Shown: positions 43,961-64,000 of the stretch, piece after piece
Layout: each line of letters begins with the position of its first letter
Numbering within the stretch: the first letter of the stretch is position 1
From: Daejeonella sp. JGW-45
GTDB taxonomy: Bacteria; Bacteroidota; Bacteroidia; Sphingobacteriales; Sphingobacteriaceae
Length of the DNA stretch: 64,000 nucleotides
Assembly: GCF_029360805.1 (NCBI RefSeq)
Contig: NZ_JARKNC010000006.1
Span: forward strand, 312,199-376,198
Direction: 5' to 3'
Program-made: the position numbers and the translations under genes
The notes under the pieces: model-generated
Seen by the model: the letters and a program-made list of their open reading frames with translations, nothing else
The model's database searches: none
Told to the model about the DNA's origin: nothing

Positions 43961-45520
43961 ATGGAAAATTTTACTATAAAGTTCGGTATACGAAAATTTG
44001 CCTGTCTGATACTGATGGTCTGCATCTTATCGCCTGGTTGTACCGATGATTTCGAAGAAATAAACACCAAACCAAGCGGATTGAAAACTCTGGATCCCTC
44101 GGATGTGAGGAGCCTTTTCCCTTCAGCTCAGTACAATGTGTTTACTGAACGAACCGGTTACAACTGGCAGACGATGACCATGCTGTTCGCCGGAATGTAT
44201 TCCCAGCACTTTGCCGGGGTACAGCCCGCCCAGGAATCGCATCGTTATGTAATTGTTCAGCGCTGGATGGATATATGGCCTGCTACCTACACCAATGTCA
44301 TGTCTAATCTGCAAAGTATCATTGAAAACACTGACAGTAAAGAACCTACTTTAAATGCCATAGCCAGAATATGGAAGGTGGTTACCTTGCAGCGGCTGAC
44401 CGATTACTTCGGGCCTATTCCATATTCCCAGATCGGGACGAAGGAGCGAAGCATCAGATATGATGCTCAGAAAGATATCTATTACGATTTCTTTAAGGAA
44501 CTGGATGAAGCCACAGTCTTATTGAAAAACAATATGGCGCGGGTGTCTTTTGCAGATAAGGATCTGCTTTACCAGGGAGACAATGCAAAGTGGCTGAGAT
44601 TTGCAAATTCGCTGCGTTTGAGGCTGGCGATCAGGATCTCGAATGTTGAACCGGCCAAGGCGAAAGAGGAAGCGGAAAAGGCGTTCGCCGGAGGAGTGAT
44701 GATGGCAGTTGGAGACGGTGCCTATATCAAATCTTCATCGGATTTTCCTCACGGGCTGAATGCTCATATTGCCAGGAACAATAGCCGGATGAGCGCAACC
44801 ATGGAAAGCATTCAGAAGGGCTATAATGATCCGCGCATGCAAGTGTACTGGAGTCCGGCTCCCAGTGACGGCCAGTACCGGGGAATAAGGAACGGTATGA
44901 CAGTTGCCGATCAGAATTTGCCGGTGCATTCAAGAACTAATCTATCTAACGTGGGACTCAAATATTCACCGTCCACCGCGAACACTACACCTATGGTATG
45001 CATGTATGCTTCAGAAGTCTACTTCCTCAGGGCTGAGGGAGCGTTGAACGGCTGGAACATGGGTGGAAATGCAAAGGACCTGTATGAAAAGGGCATCGAA
45101 ACCTCAATGAACGAGCACGGAATTACCAATAGTGCCACGATAAGCACTTATACTAACGGGACAACAGGTGCGAGTGCACTGAACGATATGTACAAAAGCC
45201 CGCCTGTGACTACCGTTCCTGTTAAGTTCTCTGCCGATGTCAAAATTCAAAGGGAACAGATCGGAACGCAGAAGTGGCTGGCATTGTTCCCCGAACCTCA
45301 TGAAGCATGGGCGGAAATCAGAAGATCAGGATATCCCAGATTTTATCCTCTGCTGAATTCGCAGAATCCGGATATAGCACCTGACAAAATGATCCGCAGG
45401 ATCTCCTTTTTGGATCGGGAAATTATTGCTAACGGGGAGGCTGTTAAAGCTGCGGTACCTCTTCTGGGTGGGCCTGATAACGTAGCAACCCCCCTTTGGT
45501 GGGATAAAAACCCGAAATAG
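43961..45520 (+). CDS. SusD/RagB-family lipoprotein (module 1)
   Basis: Outer-membrane substrate-binding partner of the preceding receptor, 519 aa. The lipobox is LMVCILSPGC, with Cys at about residue 27, followed by FEEINTKPSGLKTLDPSDV, the SusD-like_2 opening. The helical repeats read VVTLQRLTDYFGPIPYSQIG and FANSLRLRLAIRISNVEPAKAKEEAEKA. The end VATPLWWDKNPK is typical. The gene is followed after 26 bp by the first exported-enzyme gene, so receptor, binding protein and enzymes look like one operon. The ligand is unknown; the enzyme content argues for a peptide- or amide-like compound. Confidence 0.93.
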   Translation: MENFTIKFGIRKFACLILMVCILSPGCTDDFEEINTKPSGLKTLDPSDVRSLFPSAQYNVFTERTGYNWQTMTMLFAGMYSQHFAGVQPAQESHRYVIVQRWMDIWPATYTNVMSNLQSIIENTDSKEPTLNAIARIWKVVTLQRLTDYFGPIPYSQIGTKERSIRYDAQKDIYYDFFKELDEATVLLKNNMARVSFADKDLLYQGDNAKWLRFANSLRLRLAIRISNVEPAKAKEEAEKAFAGGVMMAVGDGAYIKSSSDFPHGLNAHIARNNSRMSATMESIQKGYNDPRMQVYWSPAPSDGQYRGIRNGMTVADQNLPVHSRTNLSNVGLKYSPSTANTTPMVCMYASEVYFLRAEGALNGWNMGGNAKDLYEKGIETSMNEHGITNSATISTYTNGTTGASALNDMYKSPPVTTVPVKFSADVKIQREQIGTQKWLALFPEPHEAWAEIRRSGYPRFYPLLNSQNPDIAPDKMIRRISFLDREIIANGEAVKAAVPLLGGPDNVATPLWWDKNPK

Positions 45521-45546
45521 CGATTAGAAAGCTTTAACTCCACTGC

Positions 45547-47670
45547 ATGAAAGTATCAATTAAAAAATTAATGATGAAGAAGGAAAGAGATCCTTCATCT
45601 GTAGAACACTCGCACGAGCAAGCAGGCGGCCCCGACCATATATCAGGCCAGGCCCCTTTTGCCCCGCGCAGGGCTTTTCTTGGTAAAGCTTTGCTTGGAT
45701 TTGCAGGTTTAGCTTTGCCTGTCCCGGCCTTACCGGCTTCGAAACGCGGTAAAGGCGATGCCGGGACACCAGGCTGGGAAAGCTTGCAGCCTAAAGAAGC
45801 ATCTTACTGGGATCGTACCGACCGGTTTGAGGAAAAATTGGACGCTCTCCAGTCGGCATGGGACCGTAAGGACTACCGCCTGGCAAGCGCCATCTCAAAT
45901 TCATTAAGAATAAGCGGAATTCAGGCGCAGTCAGATCATGCCGGGGTTTCGGCACCCGACTCAGCTTCGACTGATTTTTCAGAAGTTTCCGCACTTCCTG
46001 AACCCCTCCGGAAATGGGCCAAAGGATGGAAATATTTCAAAGTGATCAGTCTTGAACAGGTAAGTAAGCCGAAAAGGACAATTTCGCCGGAAGCCGAACT
46101 TCTGGGGTACCCGGTTAATAATATCCCTGATCCGCAGTTTAGGAGCCACGAACCCGTAGAGTTATCCCTGGCTTTTAAATCTGCGCAGGTTAGGTCGCCA
46201 AGTCGTGAAATACGTTTAGCAAAGTTAGAAGGCGGCCGTTTGGCCGAAACCCCTTCACAGGTTTATGACGAAGTGAGAAGGGGCGATTCATGGCACTGCA
46301 AGCTTGCATTTCTCGCTGAGAGTAACGGAGCCGTCAAGAATGTTTATCTGGTGTTCTTTGGCAATCCGGATGCAGAGCTTCCCGCCTATGTTTCCGACCT
46401 GGAAACAGAAGGTGACGGTTACGCCCTGGATATACAAAACGACTTTTTCAGAATTAAGCTGTCACGCCAGACAGGTCAGATCGAAAGCATTTTCTTTAAA
46501 AGAGAGCGCGGTCTTGAGCTCTATTCGGGGGGATATGGCCATGGTGAGCCTCCGGGCCTGGATTGGTCGCATGATTATATTTCGCAGGGATATTTTCAGA
46601 AGCTCAGAACAACTTTATGGGATGAGTGCCCCGACTATGAGATAATTCGCGGGCCTGTGTGTACAATAGTCAGAAGATGGGGCTTTCCTTATTCGCCCAT
46701 ACATCCGGTATTTTCCCCGAGTCGTATCAATATGTATGTAGAATACAGGTTTTACTCAGGAGTACCCTATTTCATTAAGTCCAGCAAGTTCACTGCATTG
46801 AAAGAACTTGTGGTCGATAATCTGCGGGATGATGAATGGGTATTTACAGGTCAGGCCTTTACTAACAAGCTATGGGTCAGTAAGGACGGGAAAGTGAATT
46901 TGGGGGAACCGGACGCGAAAAGCAAAAATAATCTTTGGGGTACAGGTTTTTACCATGACGACAACATGGATTCAATCATCGGGCTGTTTCTGGACCATAG
47001 AGCGGAAGGATTGGACTCGATCAATCACTCAGGGCAGCCCGTACTTGTTAACAAATGGCATGGCCAGCTTTGGAGCAGGGCGGTTTTGGGGCAGAATACT
47101 ACGGTACCTGCCGGTTCAACCCTGTATCAGAAGAATGCTTATCTGGTAATTCCATTTACTGAATCCAATGGGCCGGCTATCGTGGAGGATGTGAGGGAGG
47201 AATTGATTAATCCCCTCCGCATAAAAGCCGGTAAACTTCCTGTGCTGACAAAAAATGAGACGGTCTCAGGAGCTCTAGCCCGTGCCGGAGAGGCTGGGGA
47301 CTCGATCATTCCTAAAGAATCCTTATGGAAGGCATTAGAAATGGCGAAAGATGGACAGTTTCTGAGCGGAACGCCTGTTTCAGGCTTGTTAAGCGTAGTC
47401 GAACTGGGATTCGTATATGATCTTGCCGTCGATGGCGGCACTGTAACTGTCATATTTGCGATGCCTCACAGGGGCAGGCCGAGGGCAGAATATTTTGAGT
47501 CAGGGTCAAGTTCTCATGTAAGTTATAAAGGTTCTCTAAATGTGCCGCAGGCATTATTGACTGTCCCGGGGGTAAAGAAAGTGGTCTTTCAGCAGACCTG
47601 GTATCCGGTGTGGACGTCAAACCTGATCACAGACGAGGGCAGGAAAAAGCTGCAGCTGCCGGCAATATGA
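45547..47670 (+). CDS. Tat-exported protein with MIP18/DUF59-like C-terminal domain, paralogue 1
   Basis: The family is not characterised. The 707-aa protein has an unusually long n-region and then a twin-arginine signal (PRRAFLGKALLGFAGLALP, RR at 41-42). Residues about 90-330 include a YWDRTDRFEEKLDALQSAW helix and IRLAKLEGGRL. The middle part (about 300-560) is beta-rich and carries the strongly conserved block GPVCTIVRRWGFPYSPIHP, with YGHGEPPGLDWSHDY before it. From about 589 the sequence resembles the MIP18/DUF59 fold (VVELGFVYDLAVDGGTVTV, then VPGVKKVVFQQTWYPVW). The Cys usual in that family is replaced: the loop reads MPHRGRP. It is a tandem duplicate of the next gene, 81 bp away. Confidence 0.75.
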   Translation: MKVSIKKLMMKKERDPSSVEHSHEQAGGPDHISGQAPFAPRRAFLGKALLGFAGLALPVPALPASKRGKGDAGTPGWESLQPKEASYWDRTDRFEEKLDALQSAWDRKDYRLASAISNSLRISGIQAQSDHAGVSAPDSASTDFSEVSALPEPLRKWAKGWKYFKVISLEQVSKPKRTISPEAELLGYPVNNIPDPQFRSHEPVELSLAFKSAQVRSPSREIRLAKLEGGRLAETPSQVYDEVRRGDSWHCKLAFLAESNGAVKNVYLVFFGNPDAELPAYVSDLETEGDGYALDIQNDFFRIKLSRQTGQIESIFFKRERGLELYSGGYGHGEPPGLDWSHDYISQGYFQKLRTTLWDECPDYEIIRGPVCTIVRRWGFPYSPIHPVFSPSRINMYVEYRFYSGVPYFIKSSKFTALKELVVDNLRDDEWVFTGQAFTNKLWVSKDGKVNLGEPDAKSKNNLWGTGFYHDDNMDSIIGLFLDHRAEGLDSINHSGQPVLVNKWHGQLWSRAVLGQNTTVPAGSTLYQKNAYLVIPFTESNGPAIVEDVREELINPLRIKAGKLPVLTKNETVSGALARAGEAGDSIIPKESLWKALEMAKDGQFLSGTPVSGLLSVVELGFVYDLAVDGGTVTVIFAMPHRGRPRAEYFESGSSSHVSYKGSLNVPQALLTVPGVKKVVFQQTWYPVWTSNLITDEGRKKLQLPAI

Positions 47671-47751
47671 TCTCTTAACAGCCCGGGCCGGGATCAACCA
47701 GATTATTTAAGCAGGCTTATATGTTGGCCTCTAAACATTAGAAATTATAAT

Positions 47752-49809
47752 ATGATCAAAACTAACAATAGCACGAATTTGCCTGATGCTGATTTGCCTG
47801 CATCTGTTATTCCAGATGATTCTCACGTTACCGACGCACAATCGCTAACGTATCTGACGGAAGATGTGCCGTTAACAAAGATAAGACGACGGAGTTTCCT
47901 GGGATTGACAGTTGGCGGAGTAACAAGTATGGCCCTATGCTCGATTTCTGCGATGGCCGGAATTATAGAAACAAAGGTGAAAAGATCCTCATTGCTGCGG
48001 ATGGTTACCGGGATTGAAAGATCTTATTGGGATAGAACCGACAAGTTCGAGATCAAGAAGGAACTGATTAAGTCTGCCTGGGAACGTAAAGATTTCCGGC
48101 AAGTCAGGGCGCTTGCCAACTCAATCAGGATTTCAAGCCTTCAGGCCCGGATTGAGGAAGGCCCGCTGGATACCCCGGTCTCCGGGTCGTTAGATTTCCA
48201 TGAAGTTAGCGCACTTTCGCCGGAATGGCAGAAGTTTGCGAAGGGATGGAAGTATTACAAAGTATTGATTACAGAAGAAAAAAGTGGTTTTGCGCGGGAG
48301 CTGGAACCGGTTGAGGCCTTTTTAGGTTTCCCCGGCGACAAGGTTAAGTTCCTGAGCCGCGAAGTAAGGGTCGCGAAAATAGAAGCGGGAAAATTGTCAG
48401 AGATAAAGTCGCAGGTATTTGAAGAGTCGACCCGAGGGAATGACCGGTTCTGCAAAGTAATATTTCTTGCCGGGGCAAAAGCAAATGAAAAGCAATTTTA
48501 TCTTATTTTCTTCGGAAATGATAATGCGCAACTACCTGTCTATAAAAGTGATCTTACAACATCAGGTGAGGGCTACCGGCTTGAAATAGAGAACAACTTC
48601 TATAAAGCTAATCTTTCACCTCAGGCCGGCAAAATAGAAAGGCTGACCATCAAGCGAAATCACGGGCTGGTGTTATATCCCGGCGGTGTGGGGCATGGTG
48701 AGCCCGGAAACATCGACTGGTCAAACGATTATATGGCTGAGGGCGGATTTCAAAAGTTCAGGATCGCTTTATGGGATGAATCTCCCGATTACGAAGTAGT
48801 ACGGGGCCCGGTTTGTACGATAGTCAGGTGCTGGGGCTTTCCGTATTCGCCCCTGCATCCGGTTTTTTCACCAGCCAGATTGAATATCGATGTTGAATAC
48901 CGGTTTTATGCAGGTTTGCCATATTTTCACAAGTTTTCGCGCATGAGTGCAGTAAAGACGTTCAATGTAGGTGCGATCAGGGATGATGAATGGGTACTTC
49001 CCGGGAAGTCGCTTCCGGAAGTATTATGGATTGGCCCTGATGGTAAACTAAATACAGGTGCCGTACCTCCTGCCTTTTCAGAAAAGTTATGGGGCGTAGG
49101 ATTTTTCAATAAGGATACTTCAGATTCATTTATGGCGCTTCATCTGGAGCATACCGGACAGGGAGTCGATATCCTGCATACCGGGGTGCCAAGAACAGAA
49201 ACCACTAAGTTTCATGGCCAGGTCTGGGCGAGGTATCCTTACCGGAGCGGGCCTATGAAAGAGGGATCAGCTATTTTTTCAAAAAGTGCTTATGTGAGCT
49301 TGCCGTTTACCAGTGAAGAAGGCCCGGGTAAAGTAGAACGCTTAAGAAATGAATTGAAAGCGCCGGTAACTGTTAAAGCCGGTATACTGCCGAAAAATCA
49401 GGTTGTCGCCCGGTCACAGCCAGTCTTGGCAAAGACGGGTGAATCGGGCGATAGCCCGGTATCGAAGGAATTACTTTGGAAAGCGCTTCAGCATTGCAAG
49501 GACCCGCAGTTCTACTCTTCCGACATAAGTATAGTAGAGTTAGGATATGTGTATGATGTAACGGTACAAGGTGACACGGTCAATATTGTACTTTGTATGC
49601 CGCACCGGGGCAGGCCGCTTGGTGCTTATTTCACCCATGGGTCAAGTTCAGTACAACAGGGGCCTGGGACAGGCAAAGCATCCCTGACCATCCCGGAAGC
49701 ATTAATGAAGGTGCCTGGTGTAAAAAACGTTACACTAACCCAAACCTGGATTCCGATGTGGAATTCTGGTTTTATAACAGGTGAGGGAAGAAGAAAATTG
49801 GAACTGTAA
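47752..49809 (+). CDS. Tat-exported protein with MIP18/DUF59-like C-terminal domain, paralogue 2
   Basis: 685-aa paralogue of the preceding protein. The Tat signal is IRRRSFLGLTVGGVTSMALC (RRR at 45-47). The shared landmarks are in the same order: YWDRTDKFEIKKELIKSAW, FAKGWKYYKVL, YFGN-type strand LIFFGNDNAQLPVYKSDL, YPGGVGHGEPGNIDWSNDY, the block GPVCTIVRCWGFPYSPLHP, and the C-terminal VELGYVYDVTVQGDTVNIVL, MPHRGRPLGAYF, VPGVKNVTLTQTWIPMW from about residue 571. The middle domain resembles the beta-sandwich layout of mutarotase-like or lyase proteins but is not assignable. The pair probably binds or processes the same compound as the neighbouring dipeptidase. Confidence 0.75.
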   Translation: MIKTNNSTNLPDADLPASVIPDDSHVTDAQSLTYLTEDVPLTKIRRRSFLGLTVGGVTSMALCSISAMAGIIETKVKRSSLLRMVTGIERSYWDRTDKFEIKKELIKSAWERKDFRQVRALANSIRISSLQARIEEGPLDTPVSGSLDFHEVSALSPEWQKFAKGWKYYKVLITEEKSGFARELEPVEAFLGFPGDKVKFLSREVRVAKIEAGKLSEIKSQVFEESTRGNDRFCKVIFLAGAKANEKQFYLIFFGNDNAQLPVYKSDLTTSGEGYRLEIENNFYKANLSPQAGKIERLTIKRNHGLVLYPGGVGHGEPGNIDWSNDYMAEGGFQKFRIALWDESPDYEVVRGPVCTIVRCWGFPYSPLHPVFSPARLNIDVEYRFYAGLPYFHKFSRMSAVKTFNVGAIRDDEWVLPGKSLPEVLWIGPDGKLNTGAVPPAFSEKLWGVGFFNKDTSDSFMALHLEHTGQGVDILHTGVPRTETTKFHGQVWARYPYRSGPMKEGSAIFSKSAYVSLPFTSEEGPGKVERLRNELKAPVTVKAGILPKNQVVARSQPVLAKTGESGDSPVSKELLWKALQHCKDPQFYSSDISIVELGYVYDVTVQGDTVNIVLCMPHRGRPLGAYFTHGSSSVQQGPGTGKASLTIPEALMKVPGVKNVTLTQTWIPMWNSGFITGEGRRKLEL

Positions 49810-49828
49810 TTAAAGGCATAGTATATAT

Positions 49829-51145
49829 ATGAAATCGTCACGTTTTATAAAGGAGTCTCCGCCTCTCACTGAAGGTGGCAATGAGCAACCGGCTAAACGG
49901 ATGAACAGGCGGAATTTTCTTGATCTAAGCCTGGCAGGTATGGCTTTATGCCTTCCTGTTGTTGGCGGGGCAGCAGTTTTTCGTACTGGTGGCAGGATTT
50001 TCCATGGGGATGAGATTTTGGATGACAGTAAGGGTTTCAAAAGGAAGATGTTCGTTATGGATGGCCACATTCACGTAATGTCAAGACAATTGCTGCAAGG
50101 CCTGGATATTGGCCAGCGATACACGGACGGTACCGTAGACCTGCCCCGTATGATCGAAGGAGGACTTAATGCGGTATTTTTTTCTGTCTATACGCCTGAG
50201 GCTTATTATCCTGGCCGGCATGAAGTAAAAAACACCTTCAGGGTTGTAGAACTGGCCCTGGACCAGATAGAAAAGAACAATAAGGTCATCGAACTTGCAC
50301 TCAATGCCGGGGATATTGAGAGGATCAGCAAAAAAGGGAAAATAGCGGCTTTTCTTGATATCGAGGGGGGATTCGACCTTGACGGTGATCCGGGACTCCT
50401 GCGGGCGCTTTATCGCCTGGGCGTCCGCTCGCTTCAGTTGACAGCACACAACGAAAGCAATGCCTTTATTGACTCCTGTTACGGAAAAAAGTTATGGGGA
50501 GGAATTAATGATCATGGCCGCTTATTGATTTCGGAAATGAACAGGCTGGGCATGCTGATCAATGTAGCCCATGCATCTGATGATGCCATCCTGCAAACCG
50601 TCGAAGAAAGCCGGCAGCCGGTTGTTTATAGCCATGGCGGTTTTCGCGGAATTGTGGATAACCAAAGATGCATAAGTGACCAAGCAGCCCGGGCGCTGGC
50701 CGCTAAAGGAGGTGTGATCGGGATCCAGTTTGGCAGCACCTTTAACAATCCCCGGTATGCTGCCTGGATAAAATCTAAAAATCCTGTCGAAAAGCCGAAG
50801 CTGACGCCAATTCCCGCGGATGCACCAATAGCATATATTGATAAGATGGAAGCTGAAACGCTTCCGTTTGTATTCAAAGGAACTATTCCAGACGAGTATT
50901 GGATGGGAACAGATCAGCTCGCCAGGGTGATCGATTATGGGGTCAGATTAGTGGGCGAAGATCATATTGCGCTGGGTTCAGATTTTGACGGAGGGCCGCC
51001 TCTGCCGCGGGAAATTAAGGACGTGAGTGACTATCAGGAAATAGTAAAGGCACTTAAGAACCTGGGATATTCTGATCAGCGGGTAAATAAGATCTGCGGT
51101 CTGAACTGGCTCCGTGTGATCAGGGAAGTAACGGAAGGGAAATAA
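49829..51145 (+). CDS. Tat-exported M19-type (renal dipeptidase family) metallohydrolase, copy 1
   Basis: 438 aa with a Tat signal (MNRRNFLDLSLAGMALCLP, RR at 27-28). The M19 TIM barrel starts at VMDGHIHVMSRQ. Where characterised dipeptidases have His-x-Asp as the first two metal ligands, this protein has His80-x-His82. Other ligand positions are kept: Glu179 in LDIEGGFDLDGD, His248 in INVAHASDD and His269 in YSHGGFRG (usual SHSN replaced by SHGG). ALGSDFDGG closes the barrel. M19 enzymes cleave dipeptides, including those with a C-terminal D-residue, and some beta-lactams. This variant subgroup may have another amide substrate. It lies 19 bp after paralogue 2 in the same operon. Confidence 0.88.
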   Translation: MKSSRFIKESPPLTEGGNEQPAKRMNRRNFLDLSLAGMALCLPVVGGAAVFRTGGRIFHGDEILDDSKGFKRKMFVMDGHIHVMSRQLLQGLDIGQRYTDGTVDLPRMIEGGLNAVFFSVYTPEAYYPGRHEVKNTFRVVELALDQIEKNNKVIELALNAGDIERISKKGKIAAFLDIEGGFDLDGDPGLLRALYRLGVRSLQLTAHNESNAFIDSCYGKKLWGGINDHGRLLISEMNRLGMLINVAHASDDAILQTVEESRQPVVYSHGGFRGIVDNQRCISDQAARALAAKGGVIGIQFGSTFNNPRYAAWIKSKNPVEKPKLTPIPADAPIAYIDKMEAETLPFVFKGTIPDEYWMGTDQLARVIDYGVRLVGEDHIALGSDFDGGPPLPREIKDVSDYQEIVKALKNLGYSDQRVNKICGLNWLRVIREVTEGK

Positions 51146-51382: not shown

Positions 51383-51850
51383 ATGGAATTAAAACGAAGG
51401 TCGGTACTGAAAAGACTAATGGCCACATTTATTGGGATCGCAGGCGCAGGAAGTCTAGTAAGCGCAAAAGAAATGGAACACGACGAAAAATCGGTGCTTG
51501 ATGTCACGAATTTTCAGGACGTCCCAATGTTTGCAGCTTCAACTCAGTTTGGCAGGCTGGTATTCATATCCGGTACAGGCCCTGATGCTGCGTCTGTGCA
51601 CGACATAAAAAGAGATACAGATTTTGCGCTCAAAAAAATGGAGAAGCGATTGATCGACGCGGGCTCATCTATGGATAAGGTTCTTAAAGTGACGGTGTTT
51701 CTGAATGACATCGCCGATTTTGACGCAATGAATGAAGTTTATAAGGGTCGCTTCGGCAAAAAACCACCTGCAAGATCAACTATAGCAGCAGCCAAGGGTG
51801 GTATTCCCGGCAATTCAATTATTGAAATAGACTGTATTGCCTATGTATAG
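51383..51850 (+). CDS. RidA/YjgF-family protein with a Tat-type signal
   Basis: 155 aa. The N-terminus MELKRRSVLKRLMATFIGIAGAGSLVSA has the RRxxLK pattern and hydrophobic stretch of a twin-arginine signal. The remaining 120 residues form a RidA domain: FGRLVFISGTGPDA, DTDFALKKMEKRLIDAGSSMDKVLKVTVFLNDIADFDAMNEVY, and the substrate-binding Arg in PPARSTIAAAKGG followed by IIEIDCIA. Cytosolic RidA hydrolyses reactive enamines/imines from amino-acid dehydratases; export to the periplasm is unusual and implies an imine or related intermediate formed there by the neighbouring enzymes. It is the last gene of module 1, followed by a 241-bp gap with no recognised feature. Confidence 0.88.
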   Translation: MELKRRSVLKRLMATFIGIAGAGSLVSAKEMEHDEKSVLDVTNFQDVPMFAASTQFGRLVFISGTGPDAASVHDIKRDTDFALKKMEKRLIDAGSSMDKVLKVTVFLNDIADFDAMNEVYKGRFGKKPPARSTIAAAKGGIPGNSIIEIDCIAYV

Positions 51851-52091
51851 TTAACCTGTTTCGACAACCATATGCCCTGAGGTAAAGGACATAGAGATCT
51901 TTCTTTTTCTGTTGCAATTGACTGTTTTATTTCCATATATTTAAAGACCTTCATGTATAGCCCTTAGGCAGTATCATGTAACTACCCGGAAAACATAGCA
52001 GAGAAATTATAATTTGTATAATTTTTATTATAGGATTTTCATGCTTTCCTATGGAATTAATTACTTGCAATAGACCTTGTCAGGCAGGATC

Positions 52092-52673
52092 ATGTTAACA
52101 GGGAAATCACATACAGCACACGACGGGCTTCTTCTTATTCAGTTAGGCGAAGGAAGCAGCCATGCTTTTGACGTATTGTATGAAAAGTACTGGCATAACG
52201 TAGTTGACGAAGCTTATAAGCGTCTTGGAGATAAAGATCAGGCAAAAGATATTGCCCAGGAAGTATTTACTGTCATGTGGACCCGGAATAAGGAAGTGCC
52301 TATTGAAAATCTTCCGGCGTGGCTATACACAGTAACAAAAAACCAGGTGTATAAGCTCCTGCAAAAGCAGCAGCGATATGTATCCGTCCCCGACCTTTTG
52401 TCTGAACTGGTTAGCTGCAGCGACCGTACGGATGCTGCTATCATAGAAAAGGAGCTTATCAGGGCTTATAATGCCTTAGTTGACTCGCTCCCGGATCAGC
52501 AGCGTATTATATTTAAGATGCGGTACCACGATGAGCTTAGTCCCGATCAGATAGCTTCCACCCTCAGTCTTTCCCCGAAAACTGTTAGAAATCACCTGGG
52601 CAGGGCCTTATTGAAGTTGAAAACAACCTTCATGCTGCTCCAATTATTTATTATCCTTACAGACAAGTACTGA
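52092..52673 (+). CDS. ECF sigma factor of a FecR/SusC module (module 2)
   Basis: ECF sigma-70 factor of about 193 aa. The ATG at 52092 is preferred over a TTG five codons earlier. Region 2 is HAFDVLYEKYWHNVVDEAYK and GDKDQAKDIAQEVFTVMWTRNKE. Region 4 is LPDQQRIIFKMRYHDELSPDQIASTLSLSPKTVRNHLGRALLKL. It opens the second sigma/FecR/SusC/SusD module. FecR follows at 52761. The sequence is clearly diverged from the module 1 sigma (for example KTVRNHLGRALLKL against QTVRTQVRNALRLL), so the two modules are probably insulated from each other. Confidence 0.94.
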   Translation: MLTGKSHTAHDGLLLIQLGEGSSHAFDVLYEKYWHNVVDEAYKRLGDKDQAKDIAQEVFTVMWTRNKEVPIENLPAWLYTVTKNQVYKLLQKQQRYVSVPDLLSELVSCSDRTDAAIIEKELIRAYNALVDSLPDQQRIIFKMRYHDELSPDQIASTLSLSPKTVRNHLGRALLKLKTTFMLLQLFIILTDKY

Positions 52674-54036: not shown

Positions 54037-54129
54037 TGTTTGGCAAAGCCAATAATTAACTTATCAACGATCATCAGCAAATACCCCAGCCTCGAAACCA
54101 AGGTATTCTGCTTAAAACCAAACAGACAA

Positions 54130-57100: not shown

Positions 57101-57585
57101 TGGCAGTGGATATCGATTCAAAATTTGGTGCGGTAGGCTACAGTAATATGATGCAATATGCCGCCCGGTTTGGTAAAACGAAGAGTACGTTGCCAGGCAG
57201 GGAAAATGGACTGACCGTAAGTGGTGTCGATCAGACCGGCGCTCCGTTCACGAGAGTATGGCCGGTTGCAACCCTTGCCACTTATTATAATAACTATGGA
57301 AATAATAACCGGGAAGAATTTATTTATAAAACGGATTTTGTAAAGCTTCGGCGAGTTGTTTTAAAATATAACCTGCCGGTCAATTCTCTCAAATTCCTGA
57401 AAATCCAGTCGGCTTCTGTTGGTATTACCGGTTTAAATCTCGCCATCCTCTACCAGGATAAACGCATCAAGGAGGCAGGTATCGATCCGGAGATCCAGGA
57501 GTCTGTAACGAATGCCCAGGGTACCCAGGGAATTTCTATGCCCCGCACGAGGAATATTGGGTTCAACCTCAATTTAAAATTCTAA
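54130..57585 (+). CDS. SusC/RagA-family TonB-dependent receptor with STN domain (module 2)
   Basis: About 1151 aa from the ATG at 54130 (MYKNYMKELGMPDSRRIGL); a TTG 30 codons earlier would start inside the upstream hairpin region and is less likely. The signal (VILIATFMQVSAAGFAQ) is followed by the STN domain (ITLSKSNAPLKSVLKELRIQSG, FSVQPLTYSINKNTVTIKE). Then come the carboxypeptidase-regulatory domain (ITGEVKDKDGITLPGVSIKIKG), the plug (IRGNTSLNGNQQPLYVVDGMPIN, LKGGAAAALYGSQAANGVILIT) and the barrel ending NIGFNLNLKF. It is a homologue of the module 1 receptor with clearly different barrel loops. It pairs with the SusD encoded 13 bp downstream. Confidence 0.95.
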   Translation: MYKNYMKELGMPDSRRIGLVMRLTTVILIATFMQVSAAGFAQRITLSKSNAPLKSVLKELRIQSGFNFIYTDDLLQMAGPVDIVVKGSTLESVLKEIFSVQPLTYSINKNTVTIKEKERPVEFKAAVEEVIPPVTITGEVKDKDGITLPGVSIKIKGTTMGTTTDLNGKYTLTVPDNSGILVFTYIGYTSQEVPIGNRTSINMVLEVANAALSEVVVTALGVTKSKRGLGYAVQEVRGEEFTEARQNNIASSLTGKIAGVDATQVNSGVGASSRVIIRGNTSLNGNQQPLYVVDGMPINNTNRSANPSSSGLNVDRGDGISSMNPDDIATISVLKGGAAAALYGSQAANGVILITTKKGSIQKGVGIDVTSDSNFGMPSVFPNFQYEYGQGSTGVKPITEAEAVASGRLSFGAKMDGSLAMQADGVMRPYSPFYAKDNIRNFFRTSQNITNTVAFNAGNQNLRMRLSVSDLRAKDQQPNSEYKRKTANLNVIGKMGKNDFITVETNVQYNMVEGRNRPNVGYAELNAAWGVYMVASSVDIRNMIGNPENPGIDPATGREQRWNSSLASVNPYYAAYQLGNKDDLQRLIGRASVQVNLLPNLYVKGTVAKDYNDYSESNYVPNTNEYFQLGYFDSQTRREDKTNFQGIVNYNQRFLSDKLGVNILAGSQSERDFGRVQTANGTEWIVPDFYSPSNLVNRELVNLNENKSGTNSLFGEANIDYKNFLYLTVTGRKDWFSVLNPGFNSIFYPSVGLSFILSDVVKLPSLFNYAKLRSSWAEVGSATVNAGSINQTYTINTLNAYNAPGLSNPNTLQNPNIRPVAVTTVEGGFEVQMLDSRLGLDVNYYSRSTRDDILTPPISVTTGYAAGRQNLGLVTNKGWEISLSGTPVRKDNFNWDVNYNFSYNESKIVELAEGIDFLSLGSGIGGVSMINAVGLPYSTLRANVFLKNADGVQIFNRTSGFQVVGLKDVGVGNPPYLMGLSNSFRYKRLSMAVDIDSKFGAVGYSNMMQYAARFGKTKSTLPGRENGLTVSGVDQTGAPFTRVWPVATLATYYNNYGNNNREEFIYKTDFVKLRRVVLKYNLPVNSLKFLKIQSASVGITGLNLAILYQDKRIKEAGIDPEIQESVTNAQGTQGISMPRTRNIGFNLNLKF

Positions 57586-57598: not shown

Positions 57599-59203
57599 AT
57601 GAAAAAGATATTCATTAAATCGATATATGTCGCTTGCATGTTTCTTATTGCTTTCGTTATTCCATCTTGCAATTCGGAACACCTGACTGACCTGAACAAG
57701 AATCCGAACGCCATAGAATATGCAGTGCCTCAATATTCATTTACTTCAGCGGTATTGGAATCCGGCCCCACTCAAAGTTACGGCACTCTTGAAACGGGCC
57801 TTCAATATCGTTCTACCTATAAGGAAAATACGGTATCATCCCCGGGCGACCGGTTCTCCTCCTTTGGTGGTACCATCGCCAATTTCGACGTGTTTAAAAA
57901 TCAATGGAACCGGCTTATTCAGATTGTTGCCCAGATACCGGGCCCCGAGAACGTCAATAAAAGAGCTGCATGTAACATACTCAGGATACTTGCCATACAT
58001 AGAGTAACTGATGTTGCAGGCGATATGCCGTATACGGAAGCTATGAAGGGCCTGGACAATTTAAAGCCAAAATATGATACTCAAAAAAGTATCTACACAG
58101 CCATGCTGAACGAACTGGACGCAGCCTTAAAATCCATGGATGCTTCCAAACCAAATGTTTTTGGATCGTCGGATCTCTATTTTAAAGGCGATATAACCAA
58201 ATGGAAGAAATTCGGCTATACCCTGATGCTTCGCCTGGGCATGCGTCTCTCGGATGTTGAACCTGCAACTGCTAAGATTTGGGTAGAAAAGGCTGTCGCC
58301 GGGGGGGTAATGGCCGACTTCAGCGATATTGCATATATCAAGTATGCAAATGTTGCCGGGCAGACAAATCCGCGGATAGATCAGTACATCAGTGTTGATT
58401 TTGCAACCCCCGGAGGCGACAATTCGAGCGGAGGCAAATGGGCTGCCACCTTCATTGATCACTTAAAAGCAACGAATGATCCTCGTTTACCTATGCTTTC
58501 CGTTGTATGGGTGCGCTCCGGCAGTACCTATAATCCGGATAATACCCCGGCTAAGCAGCGTGGAATGATAAACGGTACTATGAACTTACTGCCGGCAGAT
58601 TTTGATACCTATTCTGAGCCCTCGTTGTTTTACTTAAACCGTGCGGCGCCTATTATTACCATGGGTGCGGCCGAAGCTTACCTTCTTTTGGCAGAAGGCG
58701 CCGCCAGAGGTTGGAATGTTGGAACAACAGCTAAAACGGCGTATGAAAACGGGGTACGTGCTGCGATGGCAGAATGGGCATTATGGCCGGCTGTAGGTTC
58801 TGTCTCCGGAGTGATTCCAGCTTCGTCTGTAAATGCATATTTGACAGCAAATCCTTATTTAGTTAATGACACCTTTGCGAAGCAGCTTGAGCAAATATCT
58901 ACCCAGAAGTGGATAAGCATGCATGGCGATGTTTTCGAAGTTTATTCAAACTGGCGCCGTACTAAATATCCTGTGTTCAACTACGCAAATTGGGTATCCG
59001 GTACTGCCAGGATCCCATGGCCCGGAAACGTTACGGGAGGTAAAATGTTCAGAAGGTTCTCTTTACCGCTCAGTGAAAGGGACGTAAATTCCGTCAATTA
59101 CCAAGACGCTATTAAAAGACAAAACTTTACTGAACAAAATACGGATCTCCTGCAAGGCAGAATGTGGTGGGATGTAGGGCCGGGCACAGGACAAAGCAAT
59201 TAA
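57599..59203 (+). CDS. SusD/RagB-family lipoprotein (module 2)
   Basis: 534-aa outer-membrane binding lipoprotein. Its signal ends FLIAFVIPSC, followed by LTDLNKNPNAIEYAVPQYSF, the SusD-like_2 opening. The helical core reads ILRILAIHRVTDVAGDMPYTEAMKG and FGYTLMLRLGMRLSDVEPATAKIWVEKAV. The end LQGRMWWDVGPGTGQSN differs somewhat from the LWW ending of the other two SusD proteins. It is the immediate downstream partner of the STN-type receptor. Enzyme genes start 29 bp later on the same strand, so the group probably forms a single transcript. Confidence 0.93.
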   Translation: MKKIFIKSIYVACMFLIAFVIPSCNSEHLTDLNKNPNAIEYAVPQYSFTSAVLESGPTQSYGTLETGLQYRSTYKENTVSSPGDRFSSFGGTIANFDVFKNQWNRLIQIVAQIPGPENVNKRAACNILRILAIHRVTDVAGDMPYTEAMKGLDNLKPKYDTQKSIYTAMLNELDAALKSMDASKPNVFGSSDLYFKGDITKWKKFGYTLMLRLGMRLSDVEPATAKIWVEKAVAGGVMADFSDIAYIKYANVAGQTNPRIDQYISVDFATPGGDNSSGGKWAATFIDHLKATNDPRLPMLSVVWVRSGSTYNPDNTPAKQRGMINGTMNLLPADFDTYSEPSLFYLNRAAPIITMGAAEAYLLLAEGAARGWNVGTTAKTAYENGVRAAMAEWALWPAVGSVSGVIPASSVNAYLTANPYLVNDTFAKQLEQISTQKWISMHGDVFEVYSNWRRTKYPVFNYANWVSGTARIPWPGNVTGGKMFRRFSLPLSERDVNSVNYQDAIKRQNFTEQNTDLLQGRMWWDVGPGTGQSN

Positions 59204-59232
59204 CTCATTAATCTATTTAACAAAGATGTTTT

Positions 59233-60615
59233 ATGAAAACAGATAAAAGTAATACCCGCAGGGATTTTATTAAAAAATCAGTTCTGACAGCTACCGGTTT
59301 GACGATCATTCCTGCATTCGGTTTTGGAGAGGAGTTTAATAATACCCCGGCCAATAATAACAAAGTCCAGGTATCACCTGTGCAGGAGGGTGTGAAGACC
59401 GTGGCTTTAATTTGCCACGCCTATTACCGAAGGTCTCATGCCGATGTACTTTTTACTAAGTTTTTTGTCGGGCTTCCGTTGGATGACGGCATGAAACGTA
59501 TGAATGTAAAAGTCGTTTCCATGCATATTGGCCAGATAACAGACGAAGATATTGGCGTCAGGATCGCAAAAATGAATGGGGTACCTCTTTATTCCAGCGT
59601 ATCCGAGGCTTTAACGCTGGGCGGCGATAAACTGGCTGTTGACGCTGTTGTATATACCGGAGAGCATGGTGATTATCCGTACAACCGGCTGGGGCAAAAA
59701 ATGTATCCCAGGATGAATACGCTGGAACAGATCTTCAGAGTGTTTGACGCTTCCAAAAAATCAGTGCCGGTTTTTTCCGACAAGGCCTTGTCCTATAGCG
59801 CGCTTGATAGCAGGTGGGTCTATGACCGGGCTAAAGAATTAAAGGTGCCCATGATGTCGGGCTCGTCGCTCCCGTACGCTTATCGCCCGTCAGGTCTTGA
59901 GCATCCTATGGGCGTAAAAATTACTGAAGCCGTGGCAGTGGGCTACGGTACGCTTGATGGCTACGGCCATCATGTTACAGAAATTCTTCAGTGCATGGTA
60001 GAACGCCGGGCCGGCGGGGAAACAGGTGTTGCCAGTGTACGGGGCTTACAGGGTGATGCGGTATGGGCTGCTATGGACTCAGGGGAGATCTCCTGGGACC
60101 TGGTAAATGCAGCCTGTGATACCATTTCTTTCCGGGTTCCGGGTTCTTTGCGGGAACTGGTTAAAAACCCTTCTGCCGTGATTGTGAAATATAATGACGG
60201 CCTTAAAGGAGCTATCCTGATATTAACCGGGACGGCCGGTAAGAGAAACGATGACCTGCCGCCGCGGCCGGGTGGATTTGCATATGCTGCAAAAGCCAAT
60301 GGCAAGACCGTTGCAACAGAGTTCTACCTGGACATCGGACTACGCAGTTCTCATTTTAGTTATTTACTCTATAATGTTGACAGGATGATCCAGACCGGGG
60401 AGCCGCAGGCACCGTTTGAACGGAACTTATTAACAAGCGAACTTATTGACATGGGGATCCGATCCCTGAATGAGGGTAAACTAAAGGAGACGCCTTTCCT
60501 GAATATTAAATATTCAGCACAAGGCTATAAGCCGTTCCGGTCGCCAAATCCATTACCGACGAACGCCGTTCCATGGCCGCCCCAGGGCTATGAGTTTTTG
60601 GGCTGGCGGAAATAG
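59233..60615 (+). CDS. Tat-exported family X protein of unknown function
   Basis: 460 aa with a classical Tat signal (TRRDFIKKSVLTATGLTIIP, RR at 9-10). The mature part starts with VKTVALICHAYYRRSHADV. Conserved blocks shared with the second copy at the window end are GGDKLAVDAVVYTGEHGDYP, MYPRMNTLEQIFRVFDASKK, VPVFSDKALSYSALDSRWV, PMMSGSSLPYAYR and EILQCMVERRAGGETGV. The alternation of strands and helices with several conserved His, Asp and Glu suggests a Rossmann-like or metal-dependent enzyme, but no characterised family is recognised with confidence. I recall similar unannotated proteins in Planctomycetes and Acidobacteria. It is adjacent to M19 copy 2, as the relic at 51172 is to M19 copy 1. 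Confidence 0.75.
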   Translation: MKTDKSNTRRDFIKKSVLTATGLTIIPAFGFGEEFNNTPANNNKVQVSPVQEGVKTVALICHAYYRRSHADVLFTKFFVGLPLDDGMKRMNVKVVSMHIGQITDEDIGVRIAKMNGVPLYSSVSEALTLGGDKLAVDAVVYTGEHGDYPYNRLGQKMYPRMNTLEQIFRVFDASKKSVPVFSDKALSYSALDSRWVYDRAKELKVPMMSGSSLPYAYRPSGLEHPMGVKITEAVAVGYGTLDGYGHHVTEILQCMVERRAGGETGVASVRGLQGDAVWAAMDSGEISWDLVNAACDTISFRVPGSLRELVKNPSAVIVKYNDGLKGAILILTGTAGKRNDDLPPRPGGFAYAAKANGKTVATEFYLDIGLRSSHFSYLLYNVDRMIQTGEPQAPFERNLLTSELIDMGIRSLNEGKLKETPFLNIKYSAQGYKPFRSPNPLPTNAVPWPPQGYEFLGWRK

Positions 60616-60635
60616 CGCCCGGATCTGATCTAAAC

Positions 60636-61871
60636 ATGAAACGAAGAAGCCTTATAAGGTACTTAACAATTTTGCCGCTGGCCGGGAGGATACTCCCGGC
60701 AAATGCAAACATATCTCCCTTGATGGATGACAATATTTCATTTTCTGAATTAACTTCATCAAGTGCTGCCAAGCCTTTTGTGATGGATGGCCATATCCAT
60801 GTGATGTCTAGGCAGCTTTTACAGGGCCTGGATATTGGTCAGAGGTATACAGATGGTTCCGTGGATCTTCCGCGTATGATTGAAGGAGGGCTCAATGCCG
60901 TATTTTTTTCAGTTTATACCCCTGAACCCTACTATCCCGGACGGCATGAAATTAAAAATACGTTCAGGGTGGTAGAACTGGCGCTGGACCAGATCGAAAA
61001 GAACAGCAGGGTGATAGAACTTGCCCTTAATGCCAGGGATATTGAGAAGATCAGCAAAAAGGGAAAGATAGCTGCTTTTCTTGATGTTGAGGGGGGATTT
61101 GACCTTGACGGTGATCTGGGGCTCCTGAGAGCGCTTTATCGTCTGGGAGTCCGCTCGCTCCAGCTGACAGCGCACAACGAAAGCAACGCTTTTATTGACT
61201 CCTGTTATGGCAAGAGGTTATGGGGAGGAATTAACGATCACGGCCGGAATATCATTCGTGAAATGAACCGGCTGGGCATGCTGATCAATGTCGCCCATGC
61301 ATCTGACGAAGCTATTCTTCAAACTGCAGCTGCAAGTGATCACCCGGTAATTTACAGCCACGGCGGATTCAGAGGGGTTGTGGATAACCAGCGTTGTATA
61401 AGCGATTCAAGCGCAAAAGCCGTTGCGGCGAAGGGGGGTGTTATCGGAATTCAATTTGGAAGCAGTTTCAATAATCCTGAATACGCTGCCTGGATAAAAT
61501 CTCAGAACCCAGTTGAAAAACCGAAGGTATTGCAAGTGTCGCATGATTCAACTATCGAGGATATCGATAAACAGGTTGCCACCGGTTTACCTTTTGTTTT
61601 TAAGGGATTGATCCCTGATAAGTATTGGATGGGCGTAAGCCAGCTTGCTAAAGTAGTAGACTACGGAGTTCGTTTACTTGGGGAGGACCACGTTGCGTTA
61701 GGGTCAGATTTCGACGGTGGTCCGCAGCTCCCCAGAGAAATTAAGGACGTAAGCGATTATCCGGAAATGCTGAAAGCGCTGCAGGACCTGGGTTACACTG
61801 ATCAGCGGATTAGAAAGATCTGCGGATTGAACTGGCTGCGGGTTATCCGGAAAGTAACAGAAGGCGTTTAA
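60636..61871 (+). CDS. Exported M19-type metallohydrolase, copy 2
   Basis: 411-aa paralogue of the enzyme at 49829; from VMDGHIHVMSRQLLQGLDIG onward the two are nearly identical over long blocks. The N-terminus MKRRSLIRYLTILPLAGRILPANA is a short Tat-like signal. The metal-site variant is the same: His53-x-His55 in place of His-x-Asp, VEGGFDLDGD, INVAHASDE and YSHGGFRGVVDNQRC, with LGSDFDGGPQLPREIKDVSDY near the C-terminus. The close similarity suggests a recent duplication with the module, or ongoing gene conversion between the copies. It follows the family X gene by 20 bp. Confidence 0.88.
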   Translation: MKRRSLIRYLTILPLAGRILPANANISPLMDDNISFSELTSSSAAKPFVMDGHIHVMSRQLLQGLDIGQRYTDGSVDLPRMIEGGLNAVFFSVYTPEPYYPGRHEIKNTFRVVELALDQIEKNSRVIELALNARDIEKISKKGKIAAFLDVEGGFDLDGDLGLLRALYRLGVRSLQLTAHNESNAFIDSCYGKRLWGGINDHGRNIIREMNRLGMLINVAHASDEAILQTAAASDHPVIYSHGGFRGVVDNQRCISDSSAKAVAAKGGVIGIQFGSSFNNPEYAAWIKSQNPVEKPKVLQVSHDSTIEDIDKQVATGLPFVFKGLIPDKYWMGVSQLAKVVDYGVRLLGEDHVALGSDFDGGPQLPREIKDVSDYPEMLKALQDLGYTDQRIRKICGLNWLRVIRKVTEGV

Positions 61872-61910
61872 AGAGCCCTGAATTATAATGATCATTTTAA
61901 TCTATAATGC

Positions 61911-63233
61911 ATGAATTCGATGAATGATGTTAGGAAGATTGTCAAAGAGCCCTCAGCGATCTTAAGGCCCTTCGCTGTTTCGCTTGCCGCATTTTTATTC
62001 CTTGTTCCGATGCTTGTACACGCCCAGGAATTCGATTTGCTGATTAAGAACGGACAGGTGATTGACACGAAGAACGGTATAGATTCAAAGATGGACATCG
62101 CAATCAGGGGAGGGAAGATAGCTAAAATAAGCAAGGATATCTCGGCAGGGCAATCTGCTAAAGTGATCGATGCGAAAGGTTATCTGGTAACCCCCGGCTT
62201 GATAAATATACATACCCATGTTTTTGTCGGCAGCAAGCCTAATACATTTGCCGATGGCGTTTTGAGTGTTTCTCCTGATGATTTTTCTTTTCGTTCAGGA
62301 ATTACAACGGTTGTTGATGCGGGCACATCAGGCTGGCGTAATTTCCCGCAGTTCAAGAAGCAGGTCATTGATCAGTCTAAAACCCGGATACTTTCTTTTT
62401 TGAATATTTTCGGTGCGGGGCTGACCGGTGAATGGCCGGCGCTTACAGGCTTTCCCGGTATAGATGATATCGACGCGGCCAGCATGTCGGACATGATTAG
62501 AGAATACCCCGGCCTGATCGTAGGGATCGTTATCGGTCACTATCACGGCAAAGAATGGATCCCCTTTGATAAGGGTATCCAGGTTGCAAATGATCGCAAA
62601 GTCCCGATTCTCGTAGAATGCTTGCTGCCCGAACTCCCGTATGAAAAGATCCTGGAAAGGTTGAGGCCCGGTGACATAGTAACGCATGCTTACCAGGATG
62701 TTGCTGCAAGAAAGCCGGTGCCCAATGATAAAAGAAAAACCCTGGTTGACGAAAAGGGATCTGTACAGCCTTTTATTCTGGAAGCGAGAAATAAGGGGGT
62801 ACTGTTTGATGTCGGTCATGGGGGTGCTGGTTTTTGGTTTAGCCAGGCCATACCTGCAGTAAAGCAAGGTTTTTTGCCCGATTCGTTTGGAATGGACTTG
62901 CACAGGTTTAGTATGAACTCCGGGATGAAGGATATGCTGGATATTATGTCAAAATTCCTGGCCATGGGGATGAGTGTGAACGACATCATTGCCCGGGCCA
63001 CCTGGCTGCCCGCCAAATCGATACAGCAATTCGGCCTGGGGCATTTGAGTGAAGGCGCCGTGGCAGACATAGCAATACTAAACATCGAGAAAGGAAATTT
63101 CGGTTTTATTGATTCAGCGGGATTTAAGCTCGGGGGGGATCAAAAGTTTCAGGCCGTGCTGACGATCCGTGACGGAAAAGTAGTATGGGATCTGAATGGT
63201 ATTGCAGCCCGGGAATACGGGAAAGCCAGGTAG
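61911..63233 (+). CDS. Exported amidohydrolase/deacetylase-family metallohydrolase
   Basis: 440-aa amidohydrolase of the EF_0837/AHA_3915-like deacetylase group, with a Sec signal ending LVPMLVHAQ rather than a Tat signal. The domain begins FDLLIKNGQVIDTKNGIDSK. Metal ligands include the His-x-His of LINIHTHVFVG (101 and 103), the region VGIVIGHYHGKEW, His in VTHAYQDVAA and His in FDVGHGGAGFWF, with Asp in SFGMDLHRF. The C-terminal small domain has HLSEGAVADIAILNIEKG. Relatives hydrolyse N-acyl or cyclic amide bonds. In this operon it would act after or beside the dipeptidase, releasing or opening an amide product in the periplasm. Confidence 0.88.
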   Translation: MNSMNDVRKIVKEPSAILRPFAVSLAAFLFLVPMLVHAQEFDLLIKNGQVIDTKNGIDSKMDIAIRGGKIAKISKDISAGQSAKVIDAKGYLVTPGLINIHTHVFVGSKPNTFADGVLSVSPDDFSFRSGITTVVDAGTSGWRNFPQFKKQVIDQSKTRILSFLNIFGAGLTGEWPALTGFPGIDDIDAASMSDMIREYPGLIVGIVIGHYHGKEWIPFDKGIQVANDRKVPILVECLLPELPYEKILERLRPGDIVTHAYQDVAARKPVPNDKRKTLVDEKGSVQPFILEARNKGVLFDVGHGGAGFWFSQAIPAVKQGFLPDSFGMDLHRFSMNSGMKDMLDIMSKFLAMGMSVNDIIARATWLPAKSIQQFGLGHLSEGAVADIAILNIEKGNFGFIDSAGFKLGGDQKFQAVLTIRDGKVVWDLNGIAAREYGKAR

Positions 63234-63261
63234 TATAAACGTATAACGGTGAACATAGATT

Positions 63262-64000
63262 ATGCAATCAAAAGAAAACAATGAGACGGAGAATTCCATC
63301 AAAACCGTGGCTTTTATCGCCAATGTTTACAGGAACCGTTCACATGCCGACGTAATAGGGACTAAACTCTTTCTCGGGATTCCCACGGATGAAGGCATGA
63401 TAAGCCCCCAGGTAAAAATTGTGTCTATGTGGATTGACCAGATTGATGCTACGGATACCGGCGTTCGTTTATCTGAAATGCATGGCGCAGCAGTTTATCC
63501 CACCATTGCGGAGGCCCTTACACTTGGAGGCGATAAACTGGCTGTTGATGCCGTCATTTATATTGGCGAGCACGGAACGTATAAAAAAAGCCGCCTTGGA
63601 GCGACCATGTATCCGAGGATGAATTATCTGGAACAGATCTTCCGGGTGTTTGACGCTTCTAAGAAAGTTGTTCCGCTTTTTAGTGATAAGCACCTGTCGT
63701 ATAGCTGGCTGGACAGTAAGTGGATATATGACCGGGCTAAAGAATTGAACGTGCCCATGATGGCTGGTTCAACTCTGCCTTATGCGTGGCGCGATCCCGT
63801 ATTTCAGCATCCTCTGGGAACTAAAATTAAAGAGGCCGTAGCTATAGGCTATGCTTCGCTTGACTCGTATGGCATTCATGCTATCGAAATCCTTCAGTGC
63901 ATGGTTGAGCGCCGGAAAGGGGGGGAAACGGGTGTCAGAAGCGTACACACGCTGGCGGGAAATGATGTTTGGGCAGCGATAGATTCAGGCAAAATTTCCA
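63262..64000 (+). CDS. Second family X protein, without signal peptide (cut by window edge)
   Basis: The gene is open to the right edge of the window; 246 codons are present. It starts ATG at 63262 (MQSKENNETENSIKTVAFIAN) with no signal peptide, so unlike the copy at 59233 it is expected to stay in the cytoplasm. The blocks match that copy closely: ANVYRNRSHADVIGTKLF, GGDKLAVDAVIYIGEHG, MYPRMNYLEQIFRVFDASKK, VPLFSDKHLSYSWLDSKW, PMMAGSTLPYAWR and EILQCMVERRKGGETGV. It may act on the imported product of the periplasmic steps. The function is unknown. Confidence 0.75.
   Translation, partial: MQSKENNETENSIKTVAFIANVYRNRSHADVIGTKLFLGIPTDEGMISPQVKIVSMWIDQIDATDTGVRLSEMHGAAVYPTIAEALTLGGDKLAVDAVIYIGEHGTYKKSRLGATMYPRMNYLEQIFRVFDASKKVVPLFSDKHLSYSWLDSKWIYDRAKELNVPMMAGSTLPYAWRDPVFQHPLGTKIKEAVAIGYASLDSYGIHAIEILQCMVERRKGGETGVRSVHTLAGNDVWAAIDSGKIS

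Follow-up and report, generated by a model that had tools for sequence, protein, structure and literature searches.

Layout of the two-module island

Analysis of a 64,000-nucleotide stretch of Daejeonella sp. JGW-45 (contig NZ_JARKNC010000006.1, positions 312,199 to 376,198; hereafter the window) revealed two adjacent operons, each built around a SusC/SusD (SusCD) uptake pair and followed by genes for candidate exported enzymes. An initial annotation, made from the sequence, had placed this island at 43961–64000; the gene content given there stands, whereas module 1 in fact starts at 38590 and module 2 extends a further 3.2 kb or so beyond the window. All of its genes that start inside the window lie on the plus strand. 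Module 1 opens with genes for an ECF sigma factor (38590..39180; Sigma70_r2 and r4_2) and a FecR-type anti-sigma factor (39258..40394; FecR and FecR_C above cut-off), followed by the SusC-type TonB-dependent transporter SusC1 (40513..43920; TIGR04056, 655.6 bits), a SusD-like lipoprotein (43961..45520; PF12741, E 2.7e-127), the fusion protein fusA (45547..47670), its paralogue fusB (47752..49809), the dipeptidase-family protein M19a (49829..51145; PF01244, E 1.3e-83) and a RidA-family protein (51383..51850; PF01042, E 3.4e-19, with solved RidA relatives). Module 2 carries its own ECF sigma factor (52077..52673) and FecR-type anti-sigma factor (52761..53933), both assigned by profile match, then SusC2 (54040..57585; TIGR04056, 575.8 bits), a SusD-like lipoprotein (57599..59203; PF12771, E 5.6e-71), X1 of an unnamed family X (59233..60615), M19b (60636..61871; PF01244, E 7.3e-84), an amidohydrolase/deacetylase termed AH (61911..63233), X2 (63262..64000, with a further 485 bp outside the window), then a GGT-type Ntn hydrolase ending some 2.2 kb, and an RraA-type protein ending some 3.2 kb, beyond the window.

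Open reading frames and profiles thus bear out the two proposed sets of ECF sigma factor, FecR, SusC and SusD, as well as the two M19 genes, RidA, the two family X genes and the amidohydrolase. An STN domain had been assigned to both transporters; SusC1 scores above the Pfam cut-off of 28.4 bits (36.0), whereas SusC2 falls slightly below it (25.8). Intergenic gaps are 19–81 bp from SusC1 to M19a and 13–40 bp from SusC2 to the RraA-type gene (25–28 bp between X2, the GGT-type gene and the RraA-type gene), and 237 bp separate M19a from RidA, which could therefore be transcribed apart from module 1. The paralogues share 82% identity over 375 residues (M19a/M19b), 50% over 631 (fusA/fusB) and 62% over 393 (X1/X2). 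A simple pattern over the first 75 residues, as distinct from a dedicated predictor of twin-arginine translocation (Tat), detected the twin-arginine motif in fusA, fusB, M19a, RidA, X1 and M19b and not in AH, X2, the GGT-type or the RraA-type protein; this agrees with the annotated signals on all exported enzymes save the amidohydrolase and the last X. AH has an N-terminal hydrophobic signal of non-Tat type.

Both modules contain the SusC/SusD pair and the sigma/anti-sigma pair expected of a polysaccharide utilisation locus, and none of the island proteins matches a recognised carbohydrate-active enzyme family by Pfam, fusB having a super-sandwich fold in its model. An Rfam search of the window gave zero matches. 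The complete two-module set was found in this genome alone and its gene pairs recur; the gene set is genuine and uncommon, and its component pairs recur non-randomly.

Family X and its H-x-H M19 partner

Co-occurrence was scored in 250 mutually related genomes of one order, in each of which the six or seven top candidates for a protein were scored. Family X is present in six of these (E 1e-10) and an M19b-like M19 in six (E 1e-60), and they are the same six; X adjoins the M19 gene in every one (the window, L040, L041, L043, L044 and L045), in the order X-X-X-M19 at two loci and X-X-M19 at one. The hypergeometric probability, uncorrected for kinship and to be read as a guide only, is 3e-12.

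M19a and M19b match the membrane/renal dipeptidase family M19 over the whole PF01244 domain, at 281.2 and 282.1 bits against a cut-off of 26. The canonical M19 motif is H-x-D. This clade differs in having M-D-G-H-x-H in all 10 aligned members, with H53 and H55 (M19b numbering) invariant at the metal-binding motif; E152, H221 and H242, which we take to be the other expected metal ligands, are kept in 10/10 rows. Three more distant M19 proteins encoded in this genome were also aligned: H-x-D is present in two, and the third has no motif at that place. The nearest solved protein to M19b is 3id7, whose preference is presumably for L-Xaa-D-Xaa.

A Pfam scan of X1 gives no hit at E 1, and none of 22 family X members matches any Gfo/Idh family in Pfam at E 0.1, the few weak hits being to unrelated names and one Tat signal. 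Structure prediction of the unfamiliar proteins, a step suggested with the initial annotation, gave a Gfo/Idh/MocA fold for X and a super-sandwich for fusB. The AlphaFold2 model of X, built from 22 sequences (mean pLDDT 78.4, pTM 0.80; first 51 residues unreliable), shows the two-domain arrangement of Gfo/Idh/MocA oxidoreductases and aligns with GenD2 (6nor; Z 24.1, 283 residues, 3.6 Å) and myo-inositol dehydrogenase (4mie; Z 23.4), with Foldseek E 5e-13 to Gfo/Idh/MocA structures. Identity in the listed structural matches is, however, 9–16%, and the GxGxx[GA] dinucleotide loop occurs in 0/95 X relatives in the segment that corresponds to X1 residues 53–77. An ordinary Gfo/Idh enzyme is ruled out by the missing loop and the missing Pfam match, and NAD(P) use by X is doubtful. 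Profile–profile comparison (hhalign) with nine Gfo/Idh-type proteins, chosen via a motif pattern and one of them by eye, gave E 0.051, worse than an M19 control (E 0.0027), and a 95-row rerun behaved alike; sequence kinship with Gfo/Idh is therefore unsupported, and the likeness is one of predicted fold. Fifteen charged or tyrosine positions are invariant: H69 (94/94) and, in 95/95 each, E144, H145, Y148, R160, D183, K184, R218, H247, E257, R259, E263, D322, R397 and Y427.

Family X was located in at least 592 stretches of genome contigs, at least 579 of them confirmed, and 80 were kept for locus study. Listed matches include Poribacteria, Latescibacterota, Gemmatimonadetes, Planctomycetes, Acidobacteria, Caldilineaceae, Lentisphaerae and several metagenome-assembled genomes of Sphingobacteriales/Bacteroidota. 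The twin-arginine pattern occurs in 28 of 32 Bacteroidota proteins versus 3 of 63 others, one of these three probably having a wrong start. Outside Bacteroidota, 133 close same-strand neighbours were found and a size filter left 98; in the 75 of these that were scanned, xylose-isomerase-like TIM barrel (10), UxuA (7), Gfo/Idh (6) and amino-acid kinase (5) families lead, followed by PhyH (4), zinc alcohol dehydrogenase (4), sulfatase, SGL and BNR (3 each), with overlap between families. At four loci from Gemmatimonadota/Latescibacterota (L056, L062, L066 and L096), a recurring series of genes of approximately 508, 345 and 569 codons comes after X, the second resembling SGL-type proteins and the third a sodium:solute symporter.

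Putative amide-cleaving and ammonia-eliminating genes, and RidA

AH scores 394.9 bits against NF006689/PRK09237, above the curated cut-off of 371, and its solved relatives are 8je0, 2ogj and 2ics; a literature search for the PRK09237 relatives Atu3266 and EF0837 found no paper. Within the same 250 genomes, AH is present in 26 and a DgaE-like enzyme, assigned to the pyridoxal 5′-phosphate (PLP)-dependent ammonia-lyases, in the same 26, among them the six X/M19 genomes (7e-36 on the same uncorrected, guide-only basis). At least 21 of these genomes have the two genes within 600 bp of each other (52 of 62 DgaE-like rows used). These DgaE-like proteins are of the type encoded in a sister island of the JGW-45 genome (G000:C7:80-112 kb), which has counterparts in three other genomes and several metagenome-assembled genomes, with varying contents. 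Its first part comprises SusCD, X, AH, DgaE-like genes, RidA, an SBF-type transporter, an MlrC-type peptidase, a GGT-type gene and X; its later part contains cytochrome-linked dehydrogenase-like, CBM9-like and 3-hydroxyacyl-CoA-dehydrogenase-like genes, a class-III aminotransferase and an FAD/Fe-S oxidase. H-x-H M19, AH and DgaE-like genes stand together at L149, L153 and L154. Because sister and fusion loci were fetched for holding query genes, counts of gene partners there carry a bias.

The exported-type DgaE-like proteins resemble the DGL/DgaE family in matching TIGR01437, at 164.9 bits and below its cut-off of 385.3, and in keeping the active-site-type lysine of a matching S-G-x-K motif (24/24); the sister-island protein aligns with DGL (7lc0) at 106.1 bits. 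They differ at the H-H pair of DGL, opposite which the sister-island protein has R-E: none of the 24 proteins has H-H at the aligned site (one is cut off there, and one comes from a Latescibacterota record). A twin-arginine start is present in 21/24, two of the remaining three being cut at a contig end. According to the available portion of the DGL study (PMC9529869), His-163 protonates the enamine, the H163A variant releases it and RidA breaks such enamines down; in the aligned DGL chain the H-H pair lies at positions 162–163 as in that text, and K241 faces a lysine at chain residue 213, where the paper names Lys-217.

The RidA-family protein of module 1 scores 69.5 bits against PF01042 (cut-off 27.3) and 69 against TIGR00004, below that model's 106.25. 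Seven of 17 candidate DgaE-like genes in this genome were scored for distance to RidA, a count less biased than those from fetched loci, and six lie within 5 kb of a RidA locus, compared with approximately 4% expected per gene. Three of six M19 genes are likewise within 5 kb of a RidA gene. Because the proton-donor histidine is missing and RidA lies nearby in this genome, we reasonably infer that the DgaE-like proteins would release enamine, with RidA as partner. The 4.1 Mb genome holds 15 RidA-family domain hits at 13 loci, three of them inside one 401-codon frame (C9:31294-32307).

The closest analogue that surfaced in the literature is the Ong route of Pseudoalteromonas prydzensis for oxidised chitin. 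As far as the available text describes it (PMC9537276), the N-acetyl amino-sugar acid GlcNAc1A is deacetylated and ammonia is then eliminated to give 2-keto-3-deoxygluconate (KDG); amidohydrolase-type OngB, PLP enzyme OngC and RidA-type OngD are all needed for GlcNAc1A use, and OngC also deaminates D-serine and D-threonine. The shared elements are an amidohydrolase-type deacetylase, a PLP deaminase for a β-hydroxy D-amino (sugar) acid and RidA. In contrast, GlcNAc1A catabolism is described there as cytoplasmic, OngC as fold-type III and OngB as D-aminoacylase-like, whereas the amidohydrolase here is of PRK09237 type and the PLP enzyme is a DgaE/SelA-type protein with Tat-type signals, encoded in sister loci; X, the fusions and the H-x-H M19 proteins have no counterpart in the pathway as set out in that text. 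The cytoplasmic OngB/OngC/OngD set is accordingly not what the island encodes: its proteins are of exported type, and a fold-III PLP gene is absent among its genes. By analogy, the island is best read as a putative exported, SusCD-fed version of Ong chemistry built from other families.

A further locus in this genome (L157, G000:C9:145000-162000, minus strand) combines an H-x-D M19, RidA, a D-serine-dehydratase-type gene, SusC and sigma/FecR with ThuA-type, GMC oxidoreductase and gluconate-2-dehydrogenase subunit-3-type genes, and is a second, independent union of M19, RidA and a D-hydroxy-amino-acid dehydratase. This union would also suit a somewhat unlikely alternative, in which the island harvests D-amino-acid-containing peptides, N-acyl-D-amino acids or lipopeptides and its substrate has no sugar part. 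The relation of M19 to 3id7, the match of AH to a deacetylase family and the additional action of OngC on D-serine and D-threonine (in the available text of PMC9537276) are consistent with such a diet, which nonetheless leaves unexplained fusA and fusB, the sugar-oxidoreductase fold of X and the sugar-metabolism neighbours of X in other phyla.

The GGT-type protein exceeds the TIGR00066 cut-off (411.6 vs 357.85 bits) and shares an operon with an M19 protein. GGT then M19 is the textbook order for salvage of γ-glutamyl compounds such as glutathione conjugates. As an account of this island such salvage is very improbable: it would leave X, the fusions, the amidohydrolase and RidA unexplained, and the nearest PDB entry to the GGT-type protein is 2nlz, deposited as a cephalosporin acylase (444.5 bits), with entries named GGT at 250.1 bits and below. 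This ranking favours a general acylase role for the protein.

A tentative proposal for family X, which we regard as possible and on the doubtful side, is that a large family has kept the Gfo/Idh/MocA fold, given up the dinucleotide loop and works through an invariant H/E/H/K/H-rich site for non-redox (acid–base or metal) sugar-acid chemistry. In this group it would be Tat-exported and tied to H-x-H M19, and, together with exported PLP ammonia-lyases that lack the proton-donor histidine and exported RidA, would form a periplasmic deamination route for amino acids or amino-sugar acids.

Fusion proteins, substrate and proposed pathway

Both fusion proteins carry Tat-type signals, and fusB was chosen for modelling, the fold of fusA being read across from it. 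The initial annotation had called them two DUF59-like paralogues: singly they score 17.7 and 17.8 bits, below the Pfam cut-off of 23.5, with no other Pfam hit at E 1, whereas a 14-row fusion profile reaches the solved DUF59-type proteins 1uwd (E 3.2e-9), 2cu6 (E 1.8e-7) and 3lno (E 3.1e-6), which places a DUF59/MIP18-type domain at the C terminus by profile similarity. Charged and aromatic residues are strongly conserved in the 14-row alignment. The body of the fusB model resembles the super-sandwich of carbohydrate enzymes: residues ~165–546 align with the PL26 exo-rhamnogalacturonan lyase (Z 16.4, 336 residues, 4.6 Å) and with GH38 (Z 16.0, 323 residues), and further matches are to GH38 Bl_Man38B (Z 16.7 over 235 residues) and to LacZ-type domains (Z ~15–16). 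It differs from PL26 and GH38 in its ~9–10% identity, smaller size and C-terminal DUF59-type domain, so that the match is one of fold only.

In the order, fusB is present in 3/250 genomes, all within the six X/M19 genomes, of which the other three lack fusion proteins. Across the phylum, 24 of 345 genomes matched, and the 26 rows from outside this genome are limited to the DUF59 end, from model position 525 on. Other fusion loci have one to five fusion genes behind SusCD, with MFS transporters, SDR and creatininase-type genes; the transporters are nearest to the D-galactonate family (216.4 and 229.9 bits, below the cut-off of 395), and whole copies of their SusC and SusD are 61–66% identical to those of module 1. 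Creatininase-type genes follow the fusion loci L147, L150 and L152, the last scoring 104.1 bits for creatininase and 66.1 for 3-dehydro-scyllo-inosose hydrolase, both below cut-off.

These features would fit an acidic-glycan utilisation locus, in which fusA and fusB have a lyase-like role, X works with them as an oxidoreductase-like partner and N-acyl substituents are trimmed by the amide-cleaving genes: the PL26 match, the D-galactonate-like transporters and the related SusC/SusD pairs all point that way. We judge it unlikely, since by sequence there are zero carbohydrate-active enzyme family hits (Pfam), the PL26 match is one of fold and half of the X/M19 genomes lack the fusions. The statement that no glycosidase or lyase is present holds for sequence families and fails for folds. 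Modelling of the fusions as a super-sandwich of the PL26 lyase and GH38 kind makes the exclusion of a glycan unsafe, and it is weakened further by the predicted sugar-oxidoreductase fold of X and the sugar-metabolism genes beside X outside Bacteroidota. The proposed SusCD-fed pathway for a nitrogen compound is supported in part: amide-cleaving families dominate module 2, and the GGT-type gene adds another. Elsewhere in the window, genes named by eye comprise a third SusC/SusD-like pair that follows a ROK-like regulator and has no adjoining enzyme gene (29756–36198, minus strand), and a GH130-type phosphorylase-like gene facing two glycosyltransferase-like genes (8814–13570).

We propose, with a probability of roughly 0.4, that the two operons take up and dismantle, outside the cytoplasm, an amide-linked conjugate of a β-hydroxy amino acid (probably D, plausibly an amino-sugar acid) with sugar-like or acyl parts. 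Each SusCD operon would be switched by its own sigma/FecR pair. FusA and fusB, through their carbohydrate-enzyme super-sandwich, and X, through its Gfo/Idh-type fold, would act on the sugar-like part, while the H-x-H M19 proteins, the PRK09237 amidohydrolase and the GGT-type acylase would cut amide bonds. Once freed, the β-hydroxy amino acid would be dehydrated and deaminated by exported DgaE-like PLP enzymes, whose genes lie in this genome's sister loci; the exported RidA would hydrolyse the enamine/imine, and the 4-hydroxy-2-oxo acid so formed may be split by the RraA-type protein. This conjugate pathway draws its support from the X/M19 and AH/DgaE co-occurrence, RidA proximity, the missing H-H pair, the Ong analogy, L157, the relation of the GGT-type protein to cephalosporin acylase and the fusB fold.

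Several observations weigh against it. A window-like M19 was labelled (BLAST) in none of the 80 X loci kept from other genomes, so the X–M19 pairing is narrow. Annotation of the five other fusion loci that were retrieved labelled no X, M19 or amidohydrolase gene, which confines the link of the fusions to amide chemistry to the window and one RidA at L152; the recurrence of the island's families, offered earlier as a check, thus holds for X with H-x-H M19 and not for the fusions. The two-module island itself encodes no DgaE-like ammonia-lyase, and for one of the seven DgaE-like genes scored, no RidA gene is found within 5 kb. The fusB model is of modest confidence (mean pLDDT 69.1, pTM 0.70), and its TM-scores on the long matches listed are low (0.19–0.35), therefore indicating a super-sandwich fold and not PL26 membership. 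Finally, this genome, 97.6% complete, has no LPMO_10 match, and self-made C1-oxidised chitin is therefore an unlikely source.

A literature search on the gene set found no described system, in agreement with the initial annotation, and no account was found of SusCD-fed PLP-dependent ammonia elimination with RidA enamine removal outside the cytoplasm. If the proposed pathway is correct, these two reactions would run outside the cytoplasm on a SusCD-fed substrate, SusCD loci would extend beyond glycans and proteins, and the unnamed family X, with its at least 579 confirmed stretches in Poribacteria, Latescibacterota, Gemmatimonadota, Planctomycetes and others, would gain a testable function.

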